Source: Terriglobia bacterium
GTDB taxonomy: Bacteria; Acidobacteriota; Terriglobia; JAJPHL01
Assembly: GCA_021325275.1 (NCBI GenBank)
Contig: JAJPHL010000055.1
Span: forward strand, 1-64,000
DNA length: 64,000 bases
Direction: 5' to 3'
Part shown: piece after piece, positions 2,399-53,856 of the stretch
Numbering within the stretch: position 1 is the first letter of the stretch
Layout of the letters: every line of letters begins with the position of its first letter
Translations under genes and position numbers: made by a program
Notes under the pieces: model-generated
Databases searched by the model: none
What the model was told of the DNA's origin: nothing
What the model saw: the letters and a program-made list of their open reading frames with translations, nothing else

Positions 2399-2415
2399 GG
2401 TTGCTCAAAAGAATT

Positions 2416-2449
2416 CAACCACAAAGACACAAAGGACACAAAGAAAACC
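2416..2449 (+). repeat. Left inverted-repeat arm flanking a toxin-antitoxin cassette
   Basis: The arm is built on the ACACAAAG period and contains a 27-bp run (2418-2444) present as an exact reverse complement in the arm at 3583-3619. It begins 18 bases upstream of the HprK-like gene. The two arms enclose about 1.13 kb holding the DUF433/DUF5615 pair and a small gene. Confidence 0.8.
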
Positions 2450-2502
2450 AGCACCGGTAGCTAGCAAGGCTGTTTGTTGTATCCTTGAAAGTGGAGAGCA
2501 TC

Positions 2503-2760
2503 ATGGCGAGTCTCGACAGCATTGCCAAACGTGAAGGCGAGATCGACTGGACAGACTGTGAACTTGTCGAGCGCATCCCCGGAAAAGTATCGGGGCGGCC
2601 CTTGGTGCGTGGCACGAGAATTCTCGCTGACACGATTGTGCAGGACGCAGAGTTGGGCTCTTCCCTGGAAGAAATCCACGAGAATTATCCCGACTTGTCC
2701 ATGGCCGCTATTCAACGCCTCATCTCCTTCGCGCATTCTCAGCGACGGAACTCGCTGTGA
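2503..2760 (+). CDS. DUF433 family antitoxin
   Basis: An 85-residue protein with the DUF433 pattern: VERIPGKVSGRPLVRGTRI, then TIVQDAELGSSLEEIHENYP and a short helical C-terminus. DUF433 proteins are winged-helix antitoxins that neutralise a partner nuclease and usually repress their own operon. ATG 2503 is preferred because GGAGAG lies 6 bases upstream; an in-frame TTG at 2485 is possible. Its stop overlaps the GTG of the next gene (GTGA, 2757-2760), typical of such pairs. Confidence 0.8.
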   Translation: MASLDSIAKREGEIDWTDCELVERIPGKVSGRPLVRGTRILADTIVQDAELGSSLEEIHENYPDLSMAAIQRLISFAHSQRRNSL

Positions 2761-3119
2761 AGGTGTTGTTCGACCAGAATCTGCCGCACAAGCTAAGAAC
2801 GAGCCTCGGGTCCCACCACGAGATCGTGACGGCTGCGTACATGGGCTGGGGCGAACTCAAGAACGGTGAACTTCTGCAGACGGCGGAAGCCAACGGCATG
2901 GATGTCTTTGTGACAGGCGATGGAAGCCTTGAGTTTGAGCAAAACCTGAGCGGCCGGCTGTTGGCGATCGTCGCTCTATCGACAAACAACTGGCCAATCA
3001 TCAAGAACCACATAGCGCGGATTCGCGCCGCCATAGATGGCGCGAAACCTGGAACTTTTCAGGCCGTGGATTGCGGAAGATTTAGCAGGAAGCATTCGAA
3101 AGATGCTCCTCTCGAATAG
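2757..3119 (+). CDS. DUF5615 PIN-like toxin
   Basis: A 120-residue protein opening VKVLFDQNLPHKLRTSL with a later FVTGDGSLEFEQNL segment. These acidic positions match the metal-binding residues of the DUF5615/Mut7-C-type PIN-like fold, so it is probably an RNA-cleaving toxin. The GTG start overlaps the antitoxin stop by 4 bases. The pair stands alone and forms the core of a cassette enclosed by inverted repeat arms. The C-terminal 25 residues (…DCGRFSRKHSKDAPLE) are longer and more basic than the fold needs. Confidence 0.75.
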   Translation: MKVLFDQNLPHKLRTSLGSHHEIVTAAYMGWGELKNGELLQTAEANGMDVFVTGDGSLEFEQNLSGRLLAIVALSTNNWPIIKNHIARIRAAIDGAKPGTFQAVDCGRFSRKHSKDAPLE

Positions 3120-3200
3120 CAGCGCTGTCCAGAGATGCTGCGAGCAAAAATCACTCCGTTCCGCCTGTTCTCATTTCCCCGCCCCCGCATTTCCGTCTTC

Positions 3201-3419
3201 TTAGTTTTCCAGATGCCGGTTCCGGTTGAGCCAGTTCCGGTAGCAGTCCTCGGCAACGAATGCCGGCACGCCTACTGGGGCCCAGGCGCCGACATCGAGC
3301 AAAAAAGGCAAGTGGCGGCTTCTCCTGCTCTCAATGAGCGCTCGCGTAACTCTCGCCCACGATTCTTTGGTGACCGGGAGAGTCGCCAAGCGCCCTTCTA
3401 ACAGAGCGTACAACTCCAT
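3201..3419 (-). CDS. Small hypothetical protein
   Basis: A 72-residue frame with a good ribosome site (GAAGGAG, 8 bases before the ATG at 3419) and a plausible composition: an acidic/basic helix MELYALLEGRLATL, then a mixed C-terminus with four Trp. No family is recognised. It faces the toxin-antitoxin genes tail to tail inside the same inverted-repeat cassette and could be a remnant of another small accessory gene. A rightward open frame over the same bases is proline-rich and less convincing. Confidence 0.4.
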   Translation of the reverse strand: MELYALLEGRLATLPVTKESWARVTRALIESRRSRHLPFLLDVGAWAPVGVPAFVAEDCYRNWLNRNRHLEN

Positions 3420-3582
3420 AGCATTTGCTCCTTCAAAACAAATGTTAGCACAAGTGTTGTCCCTTCATTGTCCAAATGCGCTCGCGAGAAAAAGAAAATC
3501 AAGAAATCAATTTAACAGAAGGCACCGTACGGCGGTTTGAGCCTCCGTTAAGCCCGCGAGTTTCCCTACATTGGGCTGAGTG

Positions 3583-3619
3583 TTTTCCTTTGTGTCCTTT
3601 GTGTCTTTGTGGTTCAAAA
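3583..3619 (-). repeat. Right inverted-repeat arm flanking a toxin-antitoxin cassette
   Basis: Reverse complement of the arm at 2416-2449, with 27 identical bases in a row and near-identity for about 32. It ends 3 bases before the stop of the S9 peptidase gene, so the cassette sits between the ends of two flanking genes. Confidence 0.8.
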
Positions 3620-3622
3620 CGC

Positions 3623-6600
3623 CTACGGCTGATCGACCGCTTTCTGGAAGCGCTCTTTCTCCTGGTCGCGATCGATATACGGAATGCCGTTCTTCATCCA
3701 ATCCGGTTCCGGCGCGCCCTTGAGATAATGATCGAAGAATTGCTGCATGCGCACCGTGTAGTCTTTTTGATTCGGACGACGATCAAGGTGATGCGGCTCG
3801 CCGTTGTACACGAACAGATAGCATTCCTTCTGCAAGCGGCGCAGCGCCAGATAATATTCGATCCCCTGATACCACGGCACCGCGTCGTCCGCGTCGTTCG
3901 ACAAGATCATCAGCGGCGTCTGCACGCGATCCGCTTGAAAGATCGGCGAGTTCTGGATGAAACGCTCCGGATACTCCCAGATCGATCCGCCGATGCGGCT
4001 CTGCGTGTGCTCGTACTGGAATTGCCGAGGCAATCCCGTGCCCCAGCGGATGCCATCGTACGCGCTGATCATGTTGGAGACCGGCGCTCCCGCTTCCGCC
4101 GCTTTGAAACGCGTGGTTTGCGTCACCATGTAGGCGATCTGGTAGCCGCCCCAACTGTGTCCCTGAATGCCGATGTTCTTTTCGTCGACAAATCCGCGAT
4201 CCACTTGCGACTGGATCGCCGGCAGCACGCACTTCAACGCGCTCTGCCCCGGATATCCGGTGGTGTAGACGATGTCCGGCGTCAACACCAGATAGCCGTT
4301 CGACACGTAGTAGCTGATGTTGATGTTGTGGCCGGGGCGCGGGTCGACGAAATTGTTCAAGCCTTGCGACAGGCGCTCGTAAATGTAGACGATCATCGGA
4401 TATTTCTTGTGAGGATCGAAGTTTTCCGGTTTGTAGAGCACGCCTTCCAGCGCCACACCGTCGGTATTCTTGAAGCGGATCATCTCCGACGTTCCCCACA
4501 GCAATTGCGATTGCTGGGGATTCGCGTCGGTGACTTTCTTCAGGCTTTTGAACGACAAATCCGTTACGTTCAGGTTGGGATACTCGTTGAAGGTGCTTTC
4601 GGAAACCACCACGACGTCGGCTTTGCGTGCTTTCAAGAGCGTTCCGCCTCCGCCCGCTCCGCCGCGACCGGGAGCACCGGCCGCGCCATAATTCTTCGCG
4701 GCCATTATCAGTTTTTCAGGCCCCGCTCCTAGACTCAGGCGATAGTATCCGGTGTCGCGCGTCTCGGTGTTTTCGGCGCGCAGCAAGAGCGGATGCGACA
4801 CGTCGATTCCAGGCTCCGTGCCGCCTTCGTCGTCTTCACTCGGAAAATTCATCACGCGCAGGCGCAAATGCTCTTTGCGGCCGACGCCGGCCGTCAAGTT
4901 TTTCGCGGCGCTGCCGTCGGGTGCGATTTGCCAGATGTCGTAATAGTCGTAGATGAACGCCCACTTGCCGTCGGTGGAGAATCCCGCGCTGCCATAGGCG
5001 GGCGGCACTTCCGGCGTATCGTTTTCTTCGTTCCAAAACGCCACGGGAAGTTTTCCCGTAAGATTCGTGGTCTTGCCGCTGGGCACCTCGATGGAGTTCC
5101 AGTCTTTTCCATCGAAAATGATCCCGTAATGTCCGTCCGGGGACCACTGCACGCGTCCGCGCGTTTTCTTGGTCAGCGATTTCGCCGCGCCCGTGGTTCC
5201 GTCGATCAAGTAGAGGTCGCTGTAGCCGGAATCGTAGTCGGCCATGATGCGATAGTCGCGATCGTCGCTGCCGAACGCCCACGTGGCCTGGGCGTTGGGC
5301 GAAGCTTGCGCGATTTCCGGCGTACTGAGTTGCGCCGCTTTCTTCGTGGCCAGATCGAGCGCCGCCACATACACGCGATTGCGGTCCTGATTGGCGCGGA
5401 CCTTTTGGATCGGCTGAATGCGATCGTCTTTCCAGTGCCAGAGATCGGCGTGAACTTTGTCGTCGTTGTTGTTTCCGGCGGCCGGCGCGGCGGGCGCTTC
5501 CGCCGCAGTTTCCGAAGAGCTCGCCTCTTCGCGCGGGGGCGCCACCGTCAGGAGAATCCGCGAGCCGTCGCGCGTAAAAGCATTCGCGCCGCGATCGCTG
5601 AGCACAAACCCCGAGCGAATCCCTGGCGTCGATGCGCTGGCCAACTCCACCGGCGCGCCGCCCGCCTTACGATCCCAGCCGTAGAGCTTCCACTTCGGCG
5701 TCTTCGCTTCGGGATCGTCGTGCGTGCTCAAGAACGCGAACATGTTTTTCTGGTCGAAGCTGATCTTGCTGTACTTGCCTTTGCCCGAAAGCAGCGCCTT
5801 CGCGTCGCCGCCGCTCGCCGCCGTGGAATACACGCCGTTCGTCTCGTTTTTCCGCGAGGAGACCGCGTACGTCAGCGTCGCGGCGTCGCGGGTGAGCATG
5901 TATTCGGTGACGTCGTTGAAGGTCCGCTCGGCGCCGTCGGTGGTGTTGCGCAAGACGAGATCCGTGCCGTAGGTGTTACGGCCACGCGCACCGCCACTGG
6001 GGGCCGCGCCGCCGCGTCCACCGCGTCCTTGTGGCGCATCATCATCTTCGTCGCCCGCATCGTTGCCGACGCCTTCGGCACGGCCTTCCGCCGCGGCCGG
6101 CGCGGCTTCCTTTAGATACGCCAGGTATCCCGCGCCCACGCTCGGCACCTGGAAGTTTTTCACATTGGCGATGCGCGTGGCCTTGCCGTCGGCGAGACTC
6201 AGGATCACCATCGCGCTTTTCGGCATTTCGTCGGGACGTTTCTTGTCTTTCTTGGCCTGCTGCACGTCGGCGCGCGGCGGGAAGGTGGAGAAGACCACCC
6301 ACTTTCCGTCGCTCGAGAACGCGATGGTCACGCTACGCTGCTGCGCGGGACCTTCTTCCGATCCCGGATCGGCCGCCACCGGCTGCGGACGTTCGCCGGC
6401 CGGCTCCTGGAATTCCTGATTCGTGGCGAGGTTGCGCACCACGACTTGGCCGTCGCCCTCCTGGGGAAATAGACCATACGCGAGGAATTTTCCGTCGCGT
6501 GAAAGCGTGGGCGTGGTGATGGAGCGCCAGCTATCGTAGTCGTGATGATTCAGGGGCCGCTTGGATTGTTGCTGCGCGAGCGTGAGCCCGGCAATGGCGA

Positions 6601-38067: not shown

Positions 38068-40521
38068 TCAATTCTCCGACGGTTTTTCAACACGCTCGAT
38101 TACGTACGTCTCCACGGGACCCTTGCGCGACTCCAGTTTCAGCCCGAGCGTTCGTTGCAACGTTGTGAAAAGGTCCGGCGACGAAGGATCGGGCGCGGCC
38201 TCGCGTCCCGATGCTACTCCCATCGACACCGGCGCCATCGGATCACTCCAGCCGGGGATCGTGATGTCGAAGTTTCCTTTGATTCCGGTGGCGTCCACCA
38301 CCGCGCGATCGGTCCACGTGGTCAATTCTTCGGCAAGGTCTTGCATGTTGAGCATGTTGCCGGTCAAGCCATTCGCGCGGCCGCCGTGGAGTCCGTGACA
38401 CGCGCGGCTCTCGGAACAGTCGCGCTCGGCGGCCGGCGTGAGTTTCGCATCGCCTTTCGCTGCGACCAGCGCGTAGATGGGCATTTCCTTCGTCTCGTGA
38501 CGCATCCTGAGTTGGAAGCGATCGGCTAAAATGTCGCGCAACATTCGGCGCATGCGCTCTCCGCGCGGCAAATCGTCCGGCAAGGAGCCTTTCGCGTCGA
38601 TATAGTAGCGCTGCTTGTCGAGCCACTCCGGTCCGCCGCTGACGAATCCCTTCAGCATCGGAACTTGATACGCGATTTCGATCAGAAATCGCAACGTGAC
38701 GTTCTCCGCGTGTAGCCGGCCGCCCTTGAGCACCTCGACGCCCAATCGGAACGGGGGCGTTTCGTGACTCTCTTTGATCGATGCGACATCGAACGACGGC
38801 TGCTGTGGGTCGCTGTCATCGCCCGACGGCTTTTCGGCGCGCTCGACGATCAGCATCTCCACAGGACCCTTGCGCGATTCCAGCTTCAATCCGAGTTGTT
38901 CGCGCATCGCCGCAAAAACGTTTGGTCCTTCAAGGCTCCCTGGCGGCACGTCGGGGCGTTCAGCCCCGCGGCCTTGAAAATCGTCGGGCGTCCAATCTAG
39001 TTTGATGTTGTAGTTTCCTTTCAGGCCTGTGTTGTCGGTGACCACGCGACCCATCACGAACGCCAGCATATCGGCGAGTTGTTTGATTCCCACACGCTCG
39101 CCGTACAGATGACTGCGATTCTGCATGTTGAATCCGCCGCAGGGATGATCGCGTAACTGCTCACCGCAATCTTCGTCGCCGGCCATGGGCATTTTCGGCC
39201 CGCCCTTGTCCACCGTGATCGCGTACAGCGACATTTCCCGCGTCTCGCGGCGAATCGCCAGTCCGAAGCGATCTGCCAGCAACGTTTGCAACATTTCGTA
39301 GACTTCGCTGCGTCGCGCGGTGGAGGGTCCTTTGGCCAGAATGTCGAATCTCTCGGAGTCGAGCCAAGTCGGTCCGCCAGTGAGTTGGTATTCCTGAATT
39401 TGATACGCTTCGATGATCAACATGCGCAGCGGAACGTTGGTGGCTCTGAAGGTTCCGTGCATCGGCGGTGGAAATCCCATGCCACGGTCACCCGATTTGT
39501 TGACCTTCACCGTTGCCACTTCGAAACGCAAGCCCGATCCCGGCACGTGCGCTTGCGCGCGGAGACGCGGCCCATCGATCATGCCGATCGCGATGGGCAC
39601 GGCGATCGCCGCGACGCCGGCCACCGCGAGCAGAAGTTTGCGGCCGACGCTCAAGTTGCGCGCTACGCCGCGGCTCATGATGCGCTCGATGCGTTGTTTC
39701 AAGTCGGCATCCGCGACACCCGCAACGAAGGCGGTTTCGGATCGCAAGTACAATCGGCAAACGTTCAAGATGCTTTCCGCATAGACTTCCGGCTGCGTTC
39801 CCTGCCGAATCACCTCTTCGTCGCACGCGCGTTCGCGCTCCTCGACCATTCGCGCGCCGAGCCACCAGACCAGCGGATGAAACCAGAACGCCGCCTCCAC
39901 AAACATGTGGATCGCCGAGGCCAAATTGTCGCGGCGGCGTACGTGGCATAGTTCATGCGCGACGACGGCCTGAAGTTGCGTCGCCGTCAAGCGATGGGAG
40001 ATTCCCGGCGGCAGCACCAGCACGGGCCGCCAAACGCCGAAGACTCCCGGCTCAAGAAAGTCGTTCGATGACCGCACGGGAATCTCTATTCGAAGATCGA
40101 CTGGACGCGCGGCTTTCAGAGCCACGCGGATACGCCGCCACTGCATCGTCCAACGCCCCGCGGCCAACAGCGCTCCGCACAGCCAAACGCCGAGGAGGAC
40201 TTCGCCAACCGGCAACGGTTCGCTCACGGGCGATTCAACAACGCGTTCGACCTCAGGCGGCGAGAACGGCCGGCTCACTTCGTTGATTGCAACGGCAACG
40301 GCTTCGCGCGCGGCCGGTGCTTCGGGGCGCCATTCGATCTGGCGTCCCGCCGCCACCAGCAGCGAAAACGGGACCAAAAACTTCAGCGATGCCGCGAACC
40401 ACAAGCGATAGCGAACGCGCGCATGATTTTTGCGCGTCAGCAGCACCAGCAACGCGGCGAATGCCGCGAAGATCGTAGATTGCCAAAGATGATAGGCGAG
40501 CATCGTCAGCGCCGGGGTCAT
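38068..40521 (-). CDS. M56 (BlaR1-like) membrane protease fused to two TIGR03435 domains
   Basis: 817 residues. The N-terminal 320 residues are a peptidase M56 sensor-protease with several membrane helices and the zinc motif HELCH (His189, Glu190, His193), then WFHPLVWWLGARMVEERERACD. Two copies of the TIGR03435 domain follow in the exterior part (about 335-565 and 585-815), each with a SFDVASIK/FEVATVK-like opening and an ADRFxLxxRxETKEM-like centre. BlaR1 proteins normally carry a penicillin-binding sensor here, so the TIGR03435 pair probably replaces it as ligand sensor. The gene overlaps the BlaI-type repressor by 4 bases, the classic sensor-repressor pair. Confidence 0.85.
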   Translation of the reverse strand: MTPALTMLAYHLWQSTIFAAFAALLVLLTRKNHARVRYRLWFAASLKFLVPFSLLVAAGRQIEWRPEAPAAREAVAVAINEVSRPFSPPEVERVVESPVSEPLPVGEVLLGVWLCGALLAAGRWTMQWRRIRVALKAARPVDLRIEIPVRSSNDFLEPGVFGVWRPVLVLPPGISHRLTATQLQAVVAHELCHVRRRDNLASAIHMFVEAAFWFHPLVWWLGARMVEERERACDEEVIRQGTQPEVYAESILNVCRLYLRSETAFVAGVADADLKQRIERIMSRGVARNLSVGRKLLLAVAGVAAIAVPIAIGMIDGPRLRAQAHVPGSGLRFEVATVKVNKSGDRGMGFPPPMHGTFRATNVPLRMLIIEAYQIQEYQLTGGPTWLDSERFDILAKGPSTARRSEVYEMLQTLLADRFGLAIRRETREMSLYAITVDKGGPKMPMAGDEDCGEQLRDHPCGGFNMQNRSHLYGERVGIKQLADMLAFVMGRVVTDNTGLKGNYNIKLDWTPDDFQGRGAERPDVPPGSLEGPNVFAAMREQLGLKLESRKGPVEMLIVERAEKPSGDDSDPQQPSFDVASIKESHETPPFRLGVEVLKGGRLHAENVTLRFLIEIAYQVPMLKGFVSGGPEWLDKQRYYIDAKGSLPDDLPRGERMRRMLRDILADRFQLRMRHETKEMPIYALVAAKGDAKLTPAAERDCSESRACHGLHGGRANGLTGNMLNMQDLAEELTTWTDRAVVDATGIKGNFDITIPGWSDPMAPVSMGVASGREAAPDPSSPDLFTTLQRTLGLKLESRKGPVETYVIERVEKPSEN

Positions 40522-40904
40522 GATGTCTTCTCCTTGCGCGCCAGTTTCTTCAAAGCCTTTTCCGCCTCGCGCACGTCATCCAGCGTGATTTTGCCGGACT
40601 CCACGAAATGCGCCATCACCGGTTGCGTGCGCCCGCCGAACAGCGCCAGGAATTCGTCGATCAACCGGCCTTGCGCGGCGCCGCGCGACACGGCCGCCTC
40701 GAAAATGTCGGCGTTGCCGATTTTCTTGACGCGGCGCACCGCCTTCTTCGCTTCCAGGCGGTAGATGGTGGTTTGAATCGTGGTGTAGGCGGGACGGCCG
40801 CGGCCGGGAAAAGCCTGTTGGATTTCGCGGATAGCGGAGGCGCCGCGATCCCACAGCGCCTCCATGATTTGCAGTTCCAGCTTGCTCAGTTTGGGGTTGG
40901 GCAT
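40518..40904 (-). CDS. BlaI/MecI/CopY family transcriptional repressor
   Basis: 128 residues. The winged helix is clear: LSKLELQIMEALWDRGASAI, AYTTIQTTIYRLEAKKAVRR; a C-terminal dimer helix follows. BlaI proteins repress their operon until the M56 partner triggers their cleavage. The ATGA overlap with that partner (40518-40521) supports this. The system here probably answers to a cell-envelope or extracellular cue rather than beta-lactams. Confidence 0.9.
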   Translation of the reverse strand: MPNPKLSKLELQIMEALWDRGASAIREIQQAFPGRGRPAYTTIQTTIYRLEAKKAVRRVKKIGNADIFEAAVSRGAAQGRLIDEFLALFGGRTQPVMAHFVESGKITLDDVREAEKALKKLARKEKTS

Positions 40905-40908
40905 CTGC

Positions 40909-40951
40909 CTACTACATCCGTTTGAGATACTACTATCACGGTATGCTGTAG
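40909..40951 (-). promoter_or_regulatory. Candidate operator region of the BlaI/M56 operon
   Basis: Just upstream of the repressor start are CTACTACAT (40909-40917), ATACTACTAT (40925-40934) and ATGCTGTAG (40943-40951). ACTACA/TGTAGT elements are the half-sites known for BlaI/MecI repressors. The spacing here is irregular, so this is only a candidate. Confidence 0.35.
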
Positions 40952-41007
40952 GTCAAGACGCCCGCCGGTCAAAGTTTGTGACGCGGCCCGTTTTAGTGAC
41001 AGCCGGC

Positions 41008-42012
41008 TTACGCGCCCTTGTGCGTGGCCAGGTACCACGTGTTGCCCCAGGGATCCTTCACCGTGCCGTTGCGATCGCCGTAGGGCTGATCCATCAACGG
41101 ATGAAGCGAAGTGCAGCCGGCCTTTAGCGCGCGATCGTACGCGGCGTCGCAATCTTCCACGTACATGTAGAGCATCGTGGGAAGAGGTTGATACGGGCCG
41201 CGCGCTTCGCTCGCTTCCACCGACGACGTGCCGATCCACGCCATGCCATGCACCAGCGTGCCGTCGGGATTCTTGTGCGGCGTCTCCACCTTGGCGCCGA
41301 ACGCGCGCGCCAGAAAGTCCATGAATTTCTCGGCGTCGACAGCGTGAAAATACACCTGCAGTTGCGGCACGCCCGGCCAGTGAAAACTTGGGCCCTTCAC
41401 CGTGGCGATGTACCAAATGTTGCCGGCCATGTCTTTCACGGCGCATCCGCGCTCGCCGTACTCGTGATCGGTGGGCGGATAGATCGACGTGCCGCCGGCG
41501 TCGAGCGCGCGCTGATACGTGGCGTCGACGTCGGGTACGTGGTAATGCAACGCGGCGAGTTGGTCGCTGAGAGGAAACTGAGGGCCTCCGCCCAACATGA
41601 TCATCGAATCGCCCAAGCGCGCTTCGGCGTGCATGCCGCTGGGAAGCCCCGTGACGAGGAGTTTTTCCTCCGCGCCGAACGCTTGCTTGATGAACTGGTA
41701 GACTTCGGGTCCGCGCTTGCCGATGATGTACGGCGTGACGGTCAAGAACCCTTCGCGAATGTAGGATGCTTCTTTGACGGCGGTAGCTGTGGCTTCCATG
41801 GTTGTGTGTTCTCCTTTTTCGATGAATTCGGTGTTGATCAATTCAAGCCGCAGGCGATCGCGGAACTGTTCGCGCGGCAGATCGCGCAGATCGCCGGCCA
41901 AGCTCGCGAGCGCGGCGAGCGCGCCCGTGCGCTTGCCCGGTCCCGCCGCCTTGCCGGACAGCAGGCGATCGACCGCGGCGTCGAGTTGCGCGGACAATGT
42001 CGGCTCAGTCAT
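41008..42012 (-). CDS. Two-domain VOC (glyoxalase-like) protein with an N-terminal sigma-factor-linked extension
   Basis: 334 residues. Residues about 80-195 and 210-330 are two VOC domains (FLTVTPYIIGKRGPEVYQFI, DMAGNIWYIATVKG; YMYVEDCDAAYDRALKAG, DPWGNTWYLATHKG), of the PhnB/glyoxalase type. Residues 1-70 are different: an Ala/Leu/Arg-rich helix (LAALASLAGDLRDLPREQF) resembling the short helical partner domains encoded after ECF sigma genes. The ATG overlaps the sigma gene by 8 bases. A second ATG at 41799 with GGAGAA 11 bases before it could give the VOC part alone. Enzymatic activity is unknown; an environmental sensor for the sigma factor is possible. Confidence 0.75.
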   Translation of the reverse strand: MTEPTLSAQLDAAVDRLLSGKAAGPGKRTGALAALASLAGDLRDLPREQFRDRLRLELINTEFIEKGEHTTMEATATAVKEASYIREGFLTVTPYIIGKRGPEVYQFIKQAFGAEEKLLVTGLPSGMHAEARLGDSMIMLGGGPQFPLSDQLAALHYHVPDVDATYQRALDAGGTSIYPPTDHEYGERGCAVKDMAGNIWYIATVKGPSFHWPGVPQLQVYFHAVDAEKFMDFLARAFGAKVETPHKNPDGTLVHGMAWIGTSSVEASEARGPYQPLPTMLYMYVEDCDAAYDRALKAGCTSLHPLMDQPYGDRNGTVKDPWGNTWYLATHKGA

Positions 42013-42532
42013 GCGATTCCCTCATGCGCTTTCGCAAATTCTCGAGAGCCCGCAACTGCAATTGCTTTACGGCTCCCTCGCTCTTGTTCAAGTCGTGCGC
42101 GATTTCTTTGATGCTTTGCTCTTTCACGAAGCGTCCCACGATCACCTGACGCTGCTCGGCCGGCAACCGTCGCACTTCGCGAAACAGCCGCGCACGTTCA
42201 TCCGCCGCTTCGAGCTCGTCCGGCGGGATCTCCGACGGTTCTTCCTCGATCGGCTGCTGTCGACCGGCCGCTTTCCAGTGATCGACCACGGCGTTCGCCG
42301 CGATTCGCATCAGCCACGCGCCAAACGGCACACCGCGTTGTTCAAATTGCGGAAGCCGCTGGAGCGCGCGATGAAAAACGTCGGAGGTCAGGTCCTCGGC
42401 CAAATGGCGGTCGCGCACACGTCGAGCGACGAACGCATACACGCGATCGAAGTGGCGATCGTACAAGTCGGCGAAACGCGACGGATCGCGCTGCGCCTCC
42501 TCTACGGCTTGCTGTTCTTCGAGATCCACCAT
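42005..42532 (-). CDS. ECF-type RNA polymerase sigma factor
   Basis: 175 residues. Region 2 reads FADLYDRHFDRVYAFVARRV and LAEDLTSDVFHRALQRLPQF with the promoter-melting segment GAWLMRIAANAVVDHWKA. Region 4 reads LPAEQRQVIVGRFVKEQSIK and SEGAVKQLQLRALENLRKRM, a helix-turn-helix for -35 recognition. No transmembrane anti-sigma gene is adjacent. Instead it overlaps the VOC-domain gene, whose N-terminal helix may serve that role. Its ATG is at 42532. Confidence 0.92.
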   Translation of the reverse strand: MVDLEEQQAVEEAQRDPSRFADLYDRHFDRVYAFVARRVRDRHLAEDLTSDVFHRALQRLPQFEQRGVPFGAWLMRIAANAVVDHWKAAGRQQPIEEEPSEIPPDELEAADERARLFREVRRLPAEQRQVIVGRFVKEQSIKEIAHDLNKSEGAVKQLQLRALENLRKRMRESHD

Positions 42533-42588
42533 TCACAAGGGTAAACTGCGGCGGGTGGAAAAAGTTATGGGTGCGGGATAGATTTTCT

Positions 42589-43341
42589 TTAATTCGCGGA
42601 AGGCTTCGACGCGCTCACGATCACCAGCATCGGGATCGGCCCTTTGCGCGCTTCGAGTTTCAGTCCCAGTTGCTCTTGGATCGCGGTGAACAGCGACGGT
42701 CCGTCGCTCGACGGACCCGGTTCGTTGGACGACGGAACGCCCGGCCCTAAGGCCTTCGGCTGAAAACGCTCCGGCGTCCACTGCATTTGAACATTGTAGT
42801 TGGCGGTAAGTCCCGTGCGATCGGTGACGGGGTGATCGAGCACGCTTGAGAGAATCTCGGCAAGGTCTTTCGCCGTGCCATGCCCGTTGATGCGGCCGCC
42901 GCCCCAACGGAATCCATTTTTCTCCTGCGATTCCGGCATCTTCGAACCGCCCTTCGCGACAACCAATTCGTAAACGGCGCCTTCCTTCGATTCCTCACGG
43001 ACTTCAAGTTTGAAGCGATCGGCAAGCAGCTTGCGCAACATCAAGCGGTATTGTTCGCGCGTGGCATCCTGCTCCGACTTCGCGGCGATGTCGAAAGTAT
43101 CGTCGTCGAGCCACTTCGGACCGCCGCTGAGTTGGTACTCCTGAAGGTGATATGCCACGAGGATCAGCGTACTGAGCGGGACATTTTGCGCGGTGACCTC
43201 GCGTCCCGGCGGCGGCAGGTTGATGCTTCGGCCGCGCTGCCCCGGTTGCGACGGTTTGACCGATGCAACCTCGAAGGATGGTGTGGTCTGCGCGGCGGCT
43301 GCGACGGCGGAGAACAGCACGACGAGGAACAGTCTTCTCAT
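42589..43341 (-). CDS. Secreted TIGR03435-domain protein
   Basis: 250 residues: a signal peptide (RLFLVVLFSAVAAAAQ) and a single TIGR03435 domain (FEVASVKPSQPGQRG, YHLQEYQLSGGPKWLDDDTF, LADRFKLEVREESKEG, LGLKLEARKGPIPMLVI). The family is abundant in Solibacter-type genomes and has no assigned function. It is the same domain that occurs twice in the M56 protease at 38-40 kb, so the free protein could share that ligand. It runs the same way as the sigma gene, 57 bases away. Confidence 0.88.
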   Translation of the reverse strand: MRRLFLVVLFSAVAAAAQTTPSFEVASVKPSQPGQRGRSINLPPPGREVTAQNVPLSTLILVAYHLQEYQLSGGPKWLDDDTFDIAAKSEQDATREQYRLMLRKLLADRFKLEVREESKEGAVYELVVAKGGSKMPESQEKNGFRWGGGRINGHGTAKDLAEILSSVLDHPVTDRTGLTANYNVQMQWTPERFQPKALGPGVPSSNEPGPSSDGPSLFTAIQEQLGLKLEARKGPIPMLVIVSASKPSAN

Positions 43342-44582: not shown

Positions 44583-45026
44583 ATGTCCGTTTCAACGTCT
44601 GAATCAGGGCCCGCGCGAAAACCATTCATCTGGCACAGCCGCGTTCGTTTCGTCGACACCGATGCCTCGCGGCGCATTCACTACACCGCGATGTTTCGCC
44701 ACTTCGAAGCGGCAGAGCACGAGTTCCTGCGTCACATCAACTGCGGGTACGGACAAATCACTACGCGCGACGTGGCCTTTCCGCGGGTCCACGTGGAAGT
44801 GGATTTTCAGTCGGCGACAAACTACGACGATTTGCTCGAGATCGAAGTGTGGATCGCGCGAATCGGCGGCAGTTCGTTTACGTTGGCATTTCGCGCCAGC
44901 GTGGAGGGCCGGCAGGCTGCCAGCGGAAAGATCGTTGTGGCGGCGATGAGTCCGGCTACGAAAAAATCCGTGCCGCTCCCGCCGGGTCTCGCGGATTCGA
45001 TCCGTCCGTACCTGCGCGAAGGCTAA
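44583..45026 (+). CDS. Acyl-CoA thioesterase (YbgC/4HBT hotdog family)
   Basis: 147 residues. VRFVDTDASRRIHYTAMFRH is the hotdog signature with the catalytic Asp, followed by FEAAEHEFLRHIN and a beta-sheet half (VEVDFQSATNYDDLLEIEVW, SFTLAFRASVEG). It hydrolyses acyl-CoA esters in the cytoplasm, and the divergent thiolase suggests linked acyl-CoA metabolism. A TATACT box at 44565-44570 lies 12 bases before the ATG, leaving almost no leader. Its last 4 bases overlap the stop of the convergent barrel gene. Confidence 0.88.
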   Translation: MSVSTSESGPARKPFIWHSRVRFVDTDASRRIHYTAMFRHFEAAEHEFLRHINCGYGQITTRDVAFPRVHVEVDFQSATNYDDLLEIEVWIARIGGSSFTLAFRASVEGRQAASGKIVVAAMSPATKKSVPLPPGLADSIRPYLREG

Positions 45027-45709
45027 AAAATCTTGCTGATCTCGAGCGTAATCGTTTGCTTCCCGACCTTGGCGTTGTTCGGCACGCTATACCCAGCGTA
45101 AATCCCAAACTTCTTCGGCAGGTTCAGATTTACACCGGACGTTGAATATCCCATCGAGTGCGTTCCCGAATACCAGTCGGTGATCAAGCTGACGGTGTTA
45201 TTCAGCGGATGCTCGATGCCGGCGATCGCGTGAACGGTGTTGCGTCCAAACAATTGCGCGCTGCCGCCGGAGATTCCCGCGGTCAAGCGCGTCTTGATTT
45301 TCGGCAACCGGCCGCTGAAGTGGCTGTACAACCATTCGCCCGCGCCCTTGCCTTGCAGTGAAGCGAGTGCTTGACCACCGAGCGTCCACTTGAATTCTTG
45401 GTCCTTGAATGATTTCGCGGCGAGGGGAATGATCGAGCGAAAGCCCAGTGCGCCCGAGATATTACCCGACGCCGGGTCCGACGTGTTGTACAAGTTCACG
45501 TCGATCTCGGTGTGGTGACCGATGCCCGCCGCGAAATAATCGGTGGCTGCCCAGTAGCGGCCGGGCTGCCAGCTTCGGAATTGCGATTCGTGCTCCACGT
45601 AATACGTGTGTGGATCGGTGATGTCGGCGGACGGCACGTTGAAAATGGTTTGCTGCGCGTGCGCGGACAGGCCCGCCGCCAAGGAAGCCAAAAGGAAAAT
45701 GGTTCGCAT
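45023..45709 (-). CDS. Small predicted outer-membrane beta-barrel, fourth gene of the TfuA-YcaO operon
   Basis: 228 residues: a signal peptide (MRTIFLLASLAAGLSAHA) and a chain of alternating polar/aromatic beta-strands (WAATDYFAAGIGHHTEIDVN, GALGFRSIIPLAA, TVSLITDWYSGTHSMGYSTS), ending EISKIF with a terminal Phe as in many barrel proteins. No named family is recognised. ATG 45709 follows the TfuA stop with only 2 bases between, so it belongs to the peptide operon. It could be a porin, a receptor or an export channel for the product. Codons upstream of 45709 lie in another frame of tfuA and are not coding. Confidence 0.7.
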   Translation of the reverse strand: MRTIFLLASLAAGLSAHAQQTIFNVPSADITDPHTYYVEHESQFRSWQPGRYWAATDYFAAGIGHHTEIDVNLYNTSDPASGNISGALGFRSIIPLAAKSFKDQEFKWTLGGQALASLQGKGAGEWLYSHFSGRLPKIKTRLTAGISGGSAQLFGRNTVHAIAGIEHPLNNTVSLITDWYSGTHSMGYSTSGVNLNLPKKFGIYAGYSVPNNAKVGKQTITLEISKIF

Positions 45710-45711
45710 CT

Positions 45712-46434
45712 CTATTTCGACCGCGCTTGCTCCCACATCACCGGCCGCTCTAAGAAGTATGTCACGCGCTTCGGCTCCAGCCCGGCCGAAAGGTCGCGCT
45801 GCATCGTTTGAAGCATCGCAATGGCGTCCTCGCGTTTGCGACTCACCGCGCCTCGCGGGAGCCAATCGCGAAACGCCGCGAGTTCGCGGGCGTTCGCACC
45901 GCGCCCGGCGGCGATTTCCAATACCCCCGAATAATTCCGAGCGGGATAAAACAACGTCTTGGCGATTTCCCGCAATTCCTCGGAGGTTCGCGATGAAATC
46001 ACGCGATCCGCGGCCGCGCGATCCAGCGTCGCACGAATATTCACCATCGCTTCCGACGCCGCACGATACGCAAACTCCTCGGAAGCGTGCTCCACCGCGA
46101 CTTCGTCATCGTCCTCCAGCAAGCCGTCGCGATAGGCCTCGAAAATCGCGCCGACGCCCTGCATGCCGAACACACGCAATTCGGCCGCGCGCAGCGCACC
46201 CATGCTGGCGCTGCCGTAGACGTGAATGCCCTCGCTCATCGCCCACAGGATTTCCTTGTGCCACACCGACGGCACCCGCTCGAAGTATCCATCGATGATT
46301 CCGATGGCCTGCGGCCGCTGCTCGGCCGCGCGATAAACGTCGCCTTCGGCGGCGGGCGGAAGATATGCCGCGTCAAGATACGCAGCCGCATCGGTGGCGG
46401 AGATCGTGGGGCCTGTGAAAATGATCGCGTTCAT
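45712..46434 (-). CDS. tfuA: TfuA-like protein, partner of YcaO
   Basis: 240 residues. IGIIDGYFERVPSVWHKEIL and VYGSASMGALRAAEL (residues 72-86) are the hallmarks of the TfuA core domain. TfuA proteins accompany YcaO enzymes that exchange a backbone carbonyl oxygen for sulphur: in archaeal methyl-coenzyme M reductase thioglycine formation, and in thioamide-containing peptides. Trifolitoxin biosynthesis gave the family its name. The ATG overlaps the YcaO stop (ATGA, 46431-46434) with AAGGGG as ribosome site inside ycaO. Together they form the modifying pair of this operon. Confidence 0.9.
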   Translation of the reverse strand: MNAIIFTGPTISATDAAAYLDAAYLPPAAEGDVYRAAEQRPQAIGIIDGYFERVPSVWHKEILWAMSEGIHVYGSASMGALRAAELRVFGMQGVGAIFEAYRDGLLEDDDEVAVEHASEEFAYRAASEAMVNIRATLDRAAADRVISSRTSEELREIAKTLFYPARNYSGVLEIAAGRGANARELAAFRDWLPRGAVSRKREDAIAMLQTMQRDLSAGLEPKRVTYFLERPVMWEQARSK

Positions 46435-47645
46435 GCAGACCCCTTGCTCGCGAGAACCGCACGCGCGCGCGCGCCGGGCATGAATTGCGGCGTGACGGCG
46501 GTCTCGAGACCCGGCGCGATGACCCGCGCGACGGGGATTCCGAATTCACGCCGCGTCAAATCGACAACGATGACTTGTTCAACTCCCGCGCCGCGCACGC
46601 GCTCGATCGACCACGCAAGGTCCTCATCGATCGATGCGCCATCGAAATTCGGGGCATTGCGGAAATCGCGCGTGGCATCCGCCGCGAGCCGCGCACGCAG
46701 TTTGGCCAACCCGTCGCGATCCGTGATGCCGCGATAGTTCTCGCGCTTGGCGTCGTCGCGTGCCCCGGCGATCATCGTCAGCCGGCTTTGCGCGCATTCG
46801 GTGAGCGCGCGCGACAGGGCCACGGCCCGCGCCGGATGGCAGCCGTGACCGGTCGCGTGCGCTTCGTGGCGCAACACGCCCTCGCGTTCCGGCAGGATCA
46901 AGCAAGTGAACGCCGCGATCCCCACATCGCTGGTGATTTCCCAAACGCCCACGGCGATTCCCGCGCGCGCAAATTTGTCGAGCAGCTCGCGGCAACCTGG
47001 TTCATCCACGGTATCCGGATTGACGCGCGTTTCATCAAGCGCCCCGCGCAGCATCCACATTGTCATCGCGTCGCGCTCGACAAGTTCGCACAGTCCATGC
47101 GCGATCGCTTCCGGGAGATTATTCCCCGACGCCAGACCATTCGATCCGCAGGGGAAACAACCGGCTCCGGGCAGCGGTTGCGTCGCGTCCATGTGCACCA
47201 GTTCGAATGGCACGAACACACTTTGATCCGCCGCGAGCAAATCGCGCCCTTCACACCACAAAATCCGCTGCATGGGATGGAAGCGCGATCCTTTTACCGA
47301 CGGCAATTGCGCCGGATCAGCCACGCGGGTGGAGTATCGCAAATCCAAATAGGATGCCAGGCGTAGCGGAAACGTCGCGCCTTCCGCGTGAAAAAGCTCG
47401 ACCGATTCCATCAACCCGGACGCGCGCGCGGCATCGAGCGTCGCGCCCTTGCCTTGTGAAACGGAAATCGACCGCGAGTTGGGCCGGCACACCATGGTCA
47501 CGGGAATGCCGATGGAATCGAGACCGGTGACGTTGGCGATGCGCGTGATGCCCATCACCGGCGCGAGACCTTTCACCCACGCGACAGTTTCATCGGGCGT
47601 GCGCGAACGATGCGTGCCGTTACGATAGAGCTTTTGTGCGGGCAA
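46431..47645 (-). CDS. ycaO: YcaO-domain peptide-modifying enzyme
   Basis: 404 residues covering the whole YcaO fold, which uses ATP to activate a peptide amide for attack by a thiol, hydroxyl or sulphide. ATP/Mg ligands are visible in SGLMESVELFHAE (Glu80, Glu83), LPEAIAHGLCELVERDA (Glu179, Glu187, Glu190, Arg191) and LTECAQSR (Glu283, Arg288). The C-terminus (ARAVLASKGSA) lacks the PxPxP tail of azoline-forming YcaOs, which fits the TfuA-dependent thioamide class. There is no fused leader-binding domain. The start is TTG 47645, 15 bases after the precursor stop, without a clear ribosome site, so coupling to the precursor is likely. Confidence 0.92.
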   Translation of the reverse strand: MPAQKLYRNGTHRSRTPDETVAWVKGLAPVMGITRIANVTGLDSIGIPVTMVCRPNSRSISVSQGKGATLDAARASGLMESVELFHAEGATFPLRLASYLDLRYSTRVADPAQLPSVKGSRFHPMQRILWCEGRDLLAADQSVFVPFELVHMDATQPLPGAGCFPCGSNGLASGNNLPEAIAHGLCELVERDAMTMWMLRGALDETRVNPDTVDEPGCRELLDKFARAGIAVGVWEITSDVGIAAFTCLILPEREGVLRHEAHATGHGCHPARAVALSRALTECAQSRLTMIAGARDDAKRENYRGITDRDGLAKLRARLAADATRDFRNAPNFDGASIDEDLAWSIERVRGAGVEQVIVVDLTRREFGIPVARVIAPGLETAVTPQFMPGARARAVLASKGSA

Positions 47646-47660
47646 GCGGCTGGCCGGAAG

Positions 47661-47948
47661 TTAGCACATGAACCAGTGCGCCAGAACGCACGTGCAGATG
47701 TCCCAGAAGACGGTCGGCATCAGTTCGGTGATTTGCACCGAAATGTTGTGCGGTAGCGGAACCGCCGGAGCCGGGACGGGCGTCGGTGCGATCAATTGCG
47801 CGAGTTTGGTCTTCGCGTCGGGGGCCATCTTGTATTGCTGCAAGACCTCGTTGGGGATGCCGTAGAGGTTGCCGTCGGGACCGACCACAAGAATTGCCGT
47901 AGTGGGATTGTCGGTTTGCAGCGGCCCGTGGTTATGAGTCTGACTCAT
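47661..47948 (-). CDS. Candidate RiPP precursor peptide
   Basis: 95 residues, first gene of the operon. The ATG at 47948 has a strong ribosome site (GGGAGG, 4-5 bases away). Residues 1-15 are polar. Residues 17-52 form a leader-like block (TAILVVGPDGNLYGIPNEVL, then QQYKMAPDAKTKLAQLI). Residues 54-67 are a Pro/Ala linker. Residues 68-95 are a hydrophobic, cysteine-containing tail with Cys85, Cys87 and a terminal Cys95 (FWDICTCVLAHWFMC). This leader-linker-core layout beside YcaO/TfuA supports a modified peptide. No GG cleavage motif, protease or ABC exporter is seen. A small structural protein modified in place is the alternative. Confidence 0.8.
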   Translation of the reverse strand: MSQTHNHGPLQTDNPTTAILVVGPDGNLYGIPNEVLQQYKMAPDAKTKLAQLIAPTPVPAPAVPLPHNISVQITELMPTVFWDICTCVLAHWFMC

Positions 47949-48019
47949 AAGCCTCCCTTAAAGTCGGAACACAGCGAGATTTCAGCACACGACGCGAATT
48001 CCATCGCGGCTGTGACGAC

Positions 48020-48049
48020 ATCATTGTCTAGGGAAAGCGACAGTGTCAA
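48020..48049 (-). promoter_or_regulatory. Sigma-70-like promoter of the TfuA-YcaO operon
   Basis: On the minus strand a perfect -35 box TTGACA (48049-48044) is followed after 18 bases by AATGAT (48025-48020), a 4/6 match to the -10 consensus. Transcription would start near 48013, giving a leader of about 65 bases before the precursor ATG. It lies between the kinase stop and the precursor, so the operon need not depend on kinase transcription. Confidence 0.6.
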
Positions 48050-51027: not shown

Positions 51028-53856
51028 ATGCGATCGCTTACACTCGTTTTCGCTCTCGTTGGCCTTCTTTTCGCATGCGCGCTGAGCGCGCAGCCCGCGT
51101 ATCAATCGTCGCAACCAATGGACGAGGAATTCGCCAAGCTCGTGAAGGAGTGGACCACCAAGCCGGAATTCATTTCGCCGCTGGTGGATCACTTGCCGAA
51201 ATCGTCGACGGTGCCGTCGCCGAAAGACGTGATCGGCCACTATGTCGGCGAGCCGAAGAAGCTCGACTACTACGAGGATCTCTTGAAGTATTACCGCGCG
51301 CTGGCTGCGAAGTCGTCGCGCGTGAAGATTCTCGACATCGGGCAAAGCGACGAGCATCGTCCGCAGATCGTGGTGTTCGTCTCATCGGACGACAACATCA
51401 AGAATCTGGAAACCTATCGCGGATATCTGGCGCAACTCGCCGATCCGCGCAAACTCAGCGAGACCGAAGCGAGGGAAATAATTGGAAAGGCCAAGCCGAT
51501 TTATCACCTGATGTCGGGGTTGCACTCGGGCGAAACGGGACCTTCGGAAATGCTGATGGAACTGGCCTATCGCTTGGTCACCGAGGATTCGCCGCTCATC
51601 CAGAGCATTCGCGATCGCGTGATTGTGTCGATCACGCCGGCGGCCGATCCCGACGGCCGCGATCGCTACGTCGATTGGTATTACCGCTATAAGATCGACG
51701 AAAAAACCGAACAGGACAGCATGGGCGGTCCGCCGTACTGGGGAAAATACATTTTTCACGACGACAACCGCGACATCAACTACTCGCAGATTCCCATGCA
51801 GAATCTGCTGAAGTGGTATTTGCAATGGCATCCGCCGATCATGCACGACCTGCATGAGTCGGTGCCGTTCATGTACGTTTTCAGCGGACAAGCGCCACAG
51901 AACACCGCGCTCGATCCGATCCTGTACGGCGAACTGCCGTGGTTCGCAAATTTCGACATGGCGCAAATGATCAAGTACGGCATGCCGGGCGTGTGGACCC
52001 ACGCGTTCGTCGACATGTGGTCGCCGGGATATTTGGGTTTCATGTCCTCGAATCACAACGGCATGATGCGCATGTACGAAACGTTCGGCAACGGCGGGGC
52101 GAACACGATGCATCGACGCGTTGACGGCGGACCCGAGGGCGGCCGCGGCGGCGCGGGCGGCGGCGATGCCGGCGGCGGCGCTGGTCGCGGCGGGCAGACG
52201 ACACGCGAATGGTACCGGCCCGTCCCGCCGTATCGCGAAGTCGATTGGTCGATGCGCAACAACACCAACTACATGCAGACGGGCGTGCTGAGCGGACTGG
52301 AGCTCACATCGCAATTTCCGGAAGTGGTGCTCGACAATTTTTATCGCAAGTCGCGCAATTCGATTGAGGCGGGGAAAACGGAAACGCCGCACGGCTACGT
52401 TTTCCCGATTGGCCAAGACCAGCAGGATTTGACGCGCGTGGCGTGGGTCGTGAACATTCTGCGTTTCCAGGGAATCGAAGTGGGCCGCGCGAAGAATGAA
52501 GTGAAACTGAAGGAAGGTACATATCCGGCGGGATCGCTCATCATCAAACGCGATCAGCCGTACGGGCGCTTGGCGCGAATCCTGCTCGAGAAACAGAATT
52601 ATCCCGACCCGCAATTGCGCACCTACGACGATTCCGCGTGGACCATGGGCTTGATGGCGCACGTGAAAGTTGTCGAGGTCGCCGATCCCGAAGTGCTGAA
52701 CGTGCCCGTGGACGCGGTGGAAAAATACGAACCGCGCGGCACAGTGGAAAGCGGATCGGCGGGTGCGGCGGTGCTCGACAACGGGTCTCCTTCCATGATT
52801 ACCCTGCGCTACCGCATGAAGGACACGCCGATGAAGATCGCCGAGGCGGCGTTTGAATCGGGCGGGAAGAAAATTCCCGCGGGATCGTTCATCGTCCGCG
52901 CGTCCGCGGCCGCGAAACTGAAATCGGTCGCCGAGCCGCTGGGGCTTTCTGCGGTATCGTTAGCCTCCGCGCCGGACGTAAAGATGCACGACGCCGATTT
53001 GCCGAAACTCGCCGTGTTCAGTTCGTGGGGAAATACGCAAGAGGTCGGATGGGTGCGTCACGCGTTCGATCAATTCGAAGTGCCGTTCGATTTGATCTTC
53101 AAGGAGCAGATCAAGCAAGGCAATCTGCGCGCGAAGTACGACGTGATCGTAATTCCACATCAGCGCGGCGGCAAGGGTTTGGTGTTCGACATCGAGCCGC
53201 GCAAAGATGCGCAAGGAAATCCGAAGCCGCTCGCCTACACCAAGACCGACAAATTCAAATTCCTCGGCGATTACGGATCGTCGGAAGACATCACCGGCGG
53301 AATGGGCTTGGAAGGCGTGATGGAATTCCAGAAATTCGTGGCGCAAGGCGGATTGCTCGTCACGCTCGGGCAAGCCAGCACGTTCCCAGCGGACTTCGGA
53401 ATCACGCATCGTGTAACGGCGTCGACGACGTCGGCGCAATTCTACGCGCCGGGTCCGGTGATCCAAGCGGACATCGTGCGCGCCACGCACCCGGTGTTCT
53501 ACGGCTACACCGAGCACACCACGAACGTGCGTTGGGCCAGCGGTCCGCTGTTAAACGTGCCGCAGCAAGACGGCGGCCAAGTGTTGATGCGCTTCCCCGG
53601 CGGCGACGCCGCGGTGCTGAGCGGATTGATGCGCGGCGCCAACGAAATCCGCGGACGCGCCGCGATTCTCGACGTGCCGGAAGGCAAGGGCCACGTGCTG
53701 TTGTTCGCCACGAACCCGTGCTATCGCTGGCAGAACTACGGCGAGTTCCGCATGTTGTTCAACGCCGTGCTGAACTTCAACGATCTGCCGGCGACGCCGC
53801 CCGCCCCCGCGGGTCGCGGCGGCGCGGTGGAATCGGACGACGACGCGCACAACTGA
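51028..53856 (+). CDS. Secreted M14 family zinc carboxypeptidase-like protein
   Basis: 942 residues with a signal peptide (LTLVFALVGLLFACALSA). The peptidase domain holds the zinc ligands His and Glu in YHLMSGLHSGETGPSEML and a His in IMHDLHESVPF, plus TPAADPDGRDRY with the conserved substrate-contact region. A Gly/Arg-rich insertion (about residues 368-393) interrupts the middle, and the tail ends in an acidic PAGRGGAVESDDDAHN stretch. The C-terminal third resembles a glutamine amidotransferase-like/beta-sandwich region of unknown role. It probably trims peptides in the periplasm. It runs alone, divergent from the TPR kinase. Confidence 0.88.
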   Translation: MRSLTLVFALVGLLFACALSAQPAYQSSQPMDEEFAKLVKEWTTKPEFISPLVDHLPKSSTVPSPKDVIGHYVGEPKKLDYYEDLLKYYRALAAKSSRVKILDIGQSDEHRPQIVVFVSSDDNIKNLETYRGYLAQLADPRKLSETEAREIIGKAKPIYHLMSGLHSGETGPSEMLMELAYRLVTEDSPLIQSIRDRVIVSITPAADPDGRDRYVDWYYRYKIDEKTEQDSMGGPPYWGKYIFHDDNRDINYSQIPMQNLLKWYLQWHPPIMHDLHESVPFMYVFSGQAPQNTALDPILYGELPWFANFDMAQMIKYGMPGVWTHAFVDMWSPGYLGFMSSNHNGMMRMYETFGNGGANTMHRRVDGGPEGGRGGAGGGDAGGGAGRGGQTTREWYRPVPPYREVDWSMRNNTNYMQTGVLSGLELTSQFPEVVLDNFYRKSRNSIEAGKTETPHGYVFPIGQDQQDLTRVAWVVNILRFQGIEVGRAKNEVKLKEGTYPAGSLIIKRDQPYGRLARILLEKQNYPDPQLRTYDDSAWTMGLMAHVKVVEVADPEVLNVPVDAVEKYEPRGTVESGSAGAAVLDNGSPSMITLRYRMKDTPMKIAEAAFESGGKKIPAGSFIVRASAAAKLKSVAEPLGLSAVSLASAPDVKMHDADLPKLAVFSSWGNTQEVGWVRHAFDQFEVPFDLIFKEQIKQGNLRAKYDVIVIPHQRGGKGLVFDIEPRKDAQGNPKPLAYTKTDKFKFLGDYGSSEDITGGMGLEGVMEFQKFVAQGGLLVTLGQASTFPADFGITHRVTASTTSAQFYAPGPVIQADIVRATHPVFYGYTEHTTNVRWASGPLLNVPQQDGGQVLMRFPGGDAAVLSGLMRGANEIRGRAAILDVPEGKGHVLLFATNPCYRWQNYGEFRMLFNAVLNFNDLPATPPAPAGRGGAVESDDDAHN

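Follow-up and report, generated by a model that had tools for sequence, protein, structure and literature searches.

The 64,000-nucleotide stretch analyzed here (hereafter the window; positions 1 to 64,000 of contig JAJPHL010000055.1 in the Terriglobia bacterium assembly GCA_021325275.1) carries what is, judged from its sequence, a YcaO-TfuA operon that includes a precursor gene, a 95-residue peptide being encoded ahead of the two enzymes. This precursor and the enzymes very probably belong together. Its leader is of a family that recurs beside the same two enzymes, often near signaling proteins, and this recurrence suggests that the peptides serve in signaling. Within the TfuA-YcaO ribosomally synthesized and post-translationally modified peptides (RiPPs), what is new is the operon's own leader family, its minimal gene set and its signaling neighbor; the signaling link is the surprising part.

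The 95-residue ORF and its leader family

The open reading frame (ORF) of 95 residues, which has a GGGAGG ribosome site three bases before its ATG, was examined in a sample of 85 loci with ycaO. Named genomes gave 360 TfuA relatives, and the sample comprised the best 80 of these (taken by TfuA match, not at random), four loci from a survey of the window's phylum, in which 5 of 396 genomes had TfuA (the window's own included), and the window itself. A phmmer search with the peptide gave as top match an ORF directly behind tfuA in locus L020 (E = 3.3e-4), followed by ORFs directly before ycaO in L060, L010, L038, L062, L021 and L076 (E = 0.016 to 0.68). Six of the ten best non-self matches were in the pre-ycaO position, compared with 450 of 13,301 ORFs in the background (P = 3e-7; the background count takes in four loci added after the search). 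Three of the other four (L020, L029 and L028) also adjoin ycaO-tfuA and fall outside the position definition by length or side.

Of 13,611 ORFs, 34 that lie before ycaO matched a hidden Markov model (HMM) of the leader at E < 0.1, as did a single ORF in another position (L020, directly behind tfuA). Because the seeds of this model were picked by their pre-ycaO position, the phmmer search and HMMs built without the window are the fair tests. All three leave-out HMMs placed the 95-residue ORF first of 1,134 window ORFs, with E values of 0.047 (window left out), 0.46 (window and Azospirillum left out) and 0.0023 (window's clade left out). A search of 60 relatives with the peptide by itself gave nothing at E ≤ 0.01, the only match being within its own genome. 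At the sequence level, its similarity to other such peptides is weak pair by pair, yet position-specific, and the 95-residue ORF looks like a genuine precursor.

The leader motif, approximately [ILV]xRGxDGxLYx[IV], reads ILVVGPDGNLYGI in the window, and no Pfam or NCBIfam family covers it at cut-off. Two hallmarks of RiPP systems were found: a short precursor gene conserved beside the enzymes, with the leader family next to ycaO-tfuA in 36 of the 85 loci (window included), and a conserved leader joined to a variable core. The initial annotation of the window had made its reading depend on such a short gene being conserved, and a related one does occur there in many relatives. The family spans six named phyla (Acidobacteriota, Chloroflexota, Verrucomicrobiota, Balneolota, Gemmatimonadota, and Pseudomonadota), with 24 of the 36 loci in Pseudomonadota, mostly Azospirillum; a weaker, related form occurs in Myxococcota and in one unplaced delta-proteobacterium. 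AlphaFold2 predicted a beta-hairpin and two helices for leader residues 18 to 53, with block means of 95, 92 and 88 for the predicted local distance difference test (pLDDT) over residues 21 to 50 (21-row alignment). Residues 67 to 95 had pLDDT < 50, with a low-confidence helix at 81 to 93. The predicted leader fold had no PDB match at E < 0.001.

The C-termini are diverse. In Azospirillum they read DHEAGRFSITPGA and similar, Kiloniellales have tandem units (either DHASARVFVDPG or D(Y/H)xAGRMxIEA), and L039 has three FASSW units; tandem C-terminal repeats were found in L023, L025, L039, L045 and L046. The window C-terminus, FWDICTCVLAHWFMC, differs from those of 20 aligned relatives, in keeping with the earlier proposal that the core is unlike described ones, insofar as it is unlike the others compared.

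Other precursor types also stand before ycaO. Nif11-type precursors over the TIGR03798 cut-off lie upstream of ycaO in L024 and L031 (both labeled acidobacterial), and the L014 precursor is Nif11-type by its similarity to that of L024; the window peptide itself matched neither the Nif11 (TIGR03798) nor the NHLP (TIGR03793) model at E values up to 1. A second precursor set, mostly from myxobacteria with some alphaproteobacteria, ends in C[YFK][LVI][LVI][ND][LI]. This pattern, which was picked after viewing the sequences, is present in 16 of 13,611 ORFs, 14 of which are pre-ycaO (L016, L017, L021, L028, L032, L033, L037, L038, L042, L050, L061, L062, L063, and L081). Its conserved rather than variable C-terminus is odd for an antibiotic core. 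Weighing against the scheme proposed below, the searches recognized no precursor in 31 of the 85 loci, in some because upstream sequence was lacking; this count takes in L029, though a precursor was seen there. L094, whose short ORF matched no family, was entered by hand as precursor-bearing.

The predicted folded N-terminal domain would also suit an accessory protein or activator, with another cellular protein as the true substrate, comparable to McrA or the ribosomal protein uL16, and the archaeal TfuA-YcaO pair does modify a large protein according to the portions of PMC5589413 that describe it. We regard this as very unlikely for the window: relatives of the 95-residue protein have variable C-termini and tandem repeats, Nif11 RiPP precursors occupy the position upstream of ycaO in L024 and L031, and the window's own genome (97.6% complete) had no match to the McrA family PF02249, for which two control methanogens were positive.

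The enzymes and the proposed chemistry

YcaO scored 282 bits against PF02624 (cut-off, 25.7) and TfuA 163 bits against PF07812 (cut-off, 30). Their nearest solved structures are 6pe3 (the archaeal MJ1094; E = 5.9e-33), with the acidic motifs of YcaO retained in the alignment, and 6xp8 (a TfuA domain protein; E = 5.8e-40); the stretches E..E, E..ERD and RALTE are retained in alignments to solved relatives. For both enzymes the best NCBIfam matches were archaeal McrA thioamidation models, below the equivalog cut-offs (YcaO, 228.7 of 365 bits; TfuA, NF033432, 226.7 of 235.2 bits). The operon probably replaces backbone oxygen with sulfur in the short peptide that it encodes, and as read from these sequences thioamide chemistry is likely.

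In the scheme that we propose, YcaO and TfuA would recognize the folded leader (residues 18 to 53) directly, no separate leader-binding protein being encoded beside them, and at least one backbone amide in the C-terminal part would become a thioamide. YcaO would activate the amide with ATP while TfuA would supply sulfide from thiocarboxylated ThiS, a role described in the TfuA passages of PMC8939145, citing Liu et al. 2021. The window's own genome has five matches over cut-off to the ThiS family.

YcaO enzymes also form azolines and amidines. Three Cys are among the last 13 residues of the peptide, and the YcaO might act on this Cys-containing C-terminus to form azolines or amidines instead of thioamides. 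We hold this to be improbable, given the TfuA partner, the McrA thioamidation models as best NCBIfam matches, and the lack of any SagB or E1-like (ocin-ThiF) domain among the 17 window ORFs scanned (34.3 to 57.3 kb, a subset of all ORFs there), while the second YcaO of the genome does come with SagB and an NHLP precursor. That second cluster (L097:2350-8539, contig C51) encodes a 306-residue NHLP-leader precursor with repeats, a SagD-like YcaO and a SagB dehydrogenase; a convergent Ser/Thr kinase gene adjoins this cluster too, with a 4-nt overlap.

The layout of the operon agrees with the initial annotation, which had placed the 95-residue ORF, ycaO, tfuA and a gene for a barrel protein in one direction, here the minus strand, with intergenic gaps of 15, -4 and 2 nt (Table 1). 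It had also set them behind a promoter-like site, TTGACA-N18-AATGAT. The motif is present at 48049-48020, but at chance frequency (one such site in 3.4 kb versus 0.9 expected in shuffled sequence), and it is therefore no evidence for a promoter.

Table 1. Features of the peptide operon and the adjoining kinase gene in the window
Feature	Coordinates	Strand	Basis
Precursor peptide gene, 95 residues	47661..47948	-	ORF with ribosome site, leader-HMM rank, leader family
Leader domain, residues 18-53 (ILVVGPDGNLYGIPNEVLQQYKM...)	47790..47897	-	AlphaFold2 fold prediction and conserved motif
Variable C-terminal part, presumed core (...TVFWDICTCVLAHWFMC), residues 54-95	47664..47789	-	Low pLDDT; presumed core assignment
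YcaO enzyme, 404 residues, TTG start	46431..47645	-	PF02624, E = 7.6e-84
TfuA, 240 residues, 4-nt overlap with ycaO	45712..46434	-	PF07812, E = 2.8e-48
Outer-membrane beta-barrel-like protein, 3' of tfuA	45023..45709	-	Predicted model, weak porin matches
Ser/Thr kinase with hydrophobic segment and TPR region, 935 residues	48068..50875	-	PF00069 and TPR

The barrel gene is probably cotranscribed with the operon. Its product was modeled with 12 strands after a weak N-terminal one at a modest mean pLDDT of 59.6, and its fold matches are weak and porin-type (e.g., OmpG, E = 6.5e-4). Homologs were found in 8 of 60 relatives; the five TfuA-bearing genomes include none of these eight (of which only G004 is named as TfuA-searched), and no homolog was found in the 80 related TfuA loci at E below 2.9. 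The barrel stands where it had been placed but is not a conserved component, and on these counts we rejected it as part of the peptide system.

Elsewhere in the window, a 942-residue protein with a Peptidase_M14 match (51028-53856), beyond the kinase and divergent from it, may be a protease, though nothing links it to the operon. At 38068-43341, two DUF3738 proteins, one of them a Peptidase_M56 (BlaR1-like) protein, are clustered with a sigma-70-like factor.

Signaling genes beside TfuA-YcaO loci

The gene list first drawn up for this locus had overlooked a signaling kinase: on the same strand, 119 nt before the precursor, is a gene for a kinase with a TPR region, in the gene order seen in L094 (kinase, short ORF, ycaO, and tfuA on one strand). 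An all-against-all comparison revealed that a large signaling protein adjoins the operon in many loci. These genes encode a Ser/Thr kinase or a class III cyclase, in most cases joined to AAA or TPR regions; Pfam searches of nine neighbors identified AAA_16 with a cyclase in L004, L020, L027, L054 and L060, AAA_16 with a kinase in L032 and L038, and a kinase with TPR in L076 and L094. Across the scorable loci, 48 of 66 (window included) had a signaling gene within 1.3 kb of ycaO-tfuA. A strict count of clear kinase or cyclase domains, which leaves out seven loci (L009, L011, L016, L025, L045, L046, and L070), gave 41 of 59. Among the 36 leader-family loci 34 were scorable; 32 of these had a signaling gene within that distance, and in 26 its kinase or cyclase domain was clear.

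The signaling genes occur on both sides of the operon and in both orientations, with kinase or cyclase output. On a tree of YcaO and TfuA, their presence changes at least 12 times and their arrangement 16 times with seven unclear rows dropped or 18 times by side and strand alone; among positive rows only, the arrangement changes numbered 9 and 7. This tree was built quickly and contains long rows (L094, L095, L056, L076, and others); 3 of the 85 loci were left out of it for want of full-length genes, and 16 of its 82 rows were unscorable on account of short flanks. The expected chance rate within 1.3 kb, a few percent, comes from arithmetic on genome counts rather than matched random loci. Since the counts are partly lower bounds (at least 18 to 113 AAA_16 matches per genome in 17 genomes, lower bounds for 16 as no more than 117 candidates were scored), rates of 5, 10 and 20% were tested. 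After merging, 19 of 36 units were positive throughout (P = 7e-16, 2e-10, and 1e-5, respectively); the strict count gave 17 of 34 (P = 8e-14, 4e-9, and 9e-5).

In two loci the kinase lies within the operon. The order in L024 is Nif11 precursor (1177-1413), kinase-TPR gene (1451-3703), ycaO (GTG at 3700) and tfuA, with the ycaO start overlapping the kinase stop by 4 nt, and L014 has the same gene order. The window's own clade (99% support) comprises four Chloroflexota loci, two Verrucomicrobiota loci and the window. A leader-type ORF was found in all seven (in L009 only at E = 0.21), as was an adjoining signaling-type gene, domain-clear in five. The AAA-cyclase reading frames of the Chloroflexota loci overlap the tfuA frame, and the Verrucomicrobiota loci have convergent genes that match the L094 kinase and run off their contigs (no domain call in L009, TPR only in L011).

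Plasmid-borne loci vary in these components. In the Azospirillum and Indioceanicola stretches a cyclase lies upstream, and each has a leader-type ORF (E = 6e-23 and 0.006, respectively). On a Paracoccus plasmid, an annotated TPR protein with a cyclase match is divergent from ycaO, and no leader match was found below E = 2. The S. meliloti pSymB stretch has TfuA without a recognizable YcaO or signaling gene; this tfuA (L100:4989-5726, in a 10.6-kb stretch) lies between ORFs that resemble, by eye, a helix-turn-helix protein and a response regulator. Behind tfuA in seven alphaproteobacterial loci (L013, L040, L057, L068, L069, L072, and L083) is a common uncharacterized protein of about 450 residues (GTRFRLFPQ... 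near its start), and six of these seven have a second common protein of about 190 to 290 residues.

Several observations weigh against a functional tie in the window. A signaling gene is missing nearby in 18 of the 66 scorable loci. The window's own 6.86-Mb genome has 45 Pkinase matches, which by arithmetic puts chance adjacency at about 2%, and the gap between kinase and precursor contains the promoter-like site. The C-terminal region of the kinase, whose hydrophobic segment starts at residue 305, matched YcaO-linked kinases elsewhere better than it matched 15 kinases of its own genome. Relatives of that region, with at most 21 candidates scored per genome, were nevertheless found in 24 of 61 genomes of the class (23 of 60 without the window's own), with matches of up to 153 bits versus 122 for the YcaO-linked L031, and only G046 among the 23 is a known TfuA carrier. 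The region is therefore of a type common in the class and gives no sign of specialization, and the idea that it is a specialized sensor was dropped.

These points would suit a thioamidated RiPP of the ordinary kind, exported or used internally, with the kinase as a chance neighbor or mere pathway regulator. We consider this somewhat unlikely, since signaling genes recur across the tree on both sides and both strands, with kinase or cyclase outputs, and since kinases lie inside the L014 and L024 operons. The kinase is a possible functional partner of the operon, and the case for a functional link between peptide operon and signaling gene in this locus, as far as genome sequence speaks to it, is evenly balanced.

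If there is such a partnership, the finished peptide would either bind the TPR region of the kinase-TPR protein as a ligand or be an output under kinase control, a link drawn from genome position only. For the scheme as a whole (direct leader recognition, thioamidation, and a tie to the neighboring kinase-TPR protein) we see equal weight for and against. That the peptide is a ligand of the signaling protein is a tentative and rather doubtful proposal. Equally speculative is a wider class of bacterial signaling modules, present in several phyla, in which a TfuA-YcaO thioamidated peptide would switch a neighboring STAND- or TPR-type Ser/Thr kinase or class III cyclase; such modules would probably have spread by horizontal transfer.

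Relation to known systems and significance

The initial annotation had called the pathway distinct because it lacks an E1-like partner, a dehydrogenase, an exporter and a protease. That argument is not supported. TfuA-related clusters have been catalogued in bulk: Malit et al. 2021 (PMC8120280) report 613 gene cluster families and 797 precursor families, with Acidobacteria named, and the window operon falls in the same broad class. In the portions of that article relevant here, supplements aside, neither a cross-phylum DGxLY leader nor a kinase or cyclase-TPR linkage is named; the same portions give all TfuA-YcaO thioamidated RiPPs known in 2021 as actinobacterial, though most clusters lie elsewhere.

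Thiovarsolins, from Actinobacteria, are a proven TfuA-YcaO product in the sections of PMC6511847 that treat them. They share with the window the precursor-YcaO-TfuA core and with some of its relatives the repeating cores, and those sections note no specific protease. Unlike theirs, the window locus had no heme oxygenase-like, ATP-grasp, amidinotransferase or MFS match in the 17 ORFs scanned, and signaling genes are frequent neighbors of loci of its type. Loci of ATP-grasp branch 6, in the part of PMC8939145 devoted to them, likewise combine YcaO and TfuA with listed adenylate cyclases. There the cyclases appear in the enzyme list of complex clusters with ATP-grasp ligases, with no signaling link drawn in that part, whereas no ATP-grasp ligase was matched at the window operon; TPR proteins are mentioned at other graspetide loci, their role being called unclear.

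Both window enzymes are homologous to the archaeal YcaO-TfuA pair that makes McrA thioglycine (6pe3 and 6xp8), but the window genome lacks McrA and has its own small precursor instead. In RRNPP systems, a short peptide gene adjoins a TPR-containing signaling protein. The window shares this pairing; it differs in its partner, a kinase or cyclase, and in the presumed enzymatic modification of its peptide, and we claim neither homology nor membership. The relevant passages of PMC10352776 describe two RiPP clusters of Bacteroidales that contain TPR genes, and mention pheromone-bound regulators. A literature search, with most subscription journals and supplements outside its reach, returned no paper treating the pairing of TfuA-YcaO with a kinase or cyclase as a system.

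The common, apparently folded leader offers a way of finding precursors of this kind, and of expressing them, in different phyla, and the recurrent pairing with kinases or cyclases gives the peptides a testable role, that of informing a signaling protein or being controlled by it. If true, the ligand reading would make this a thioamide-peptide receptor system.

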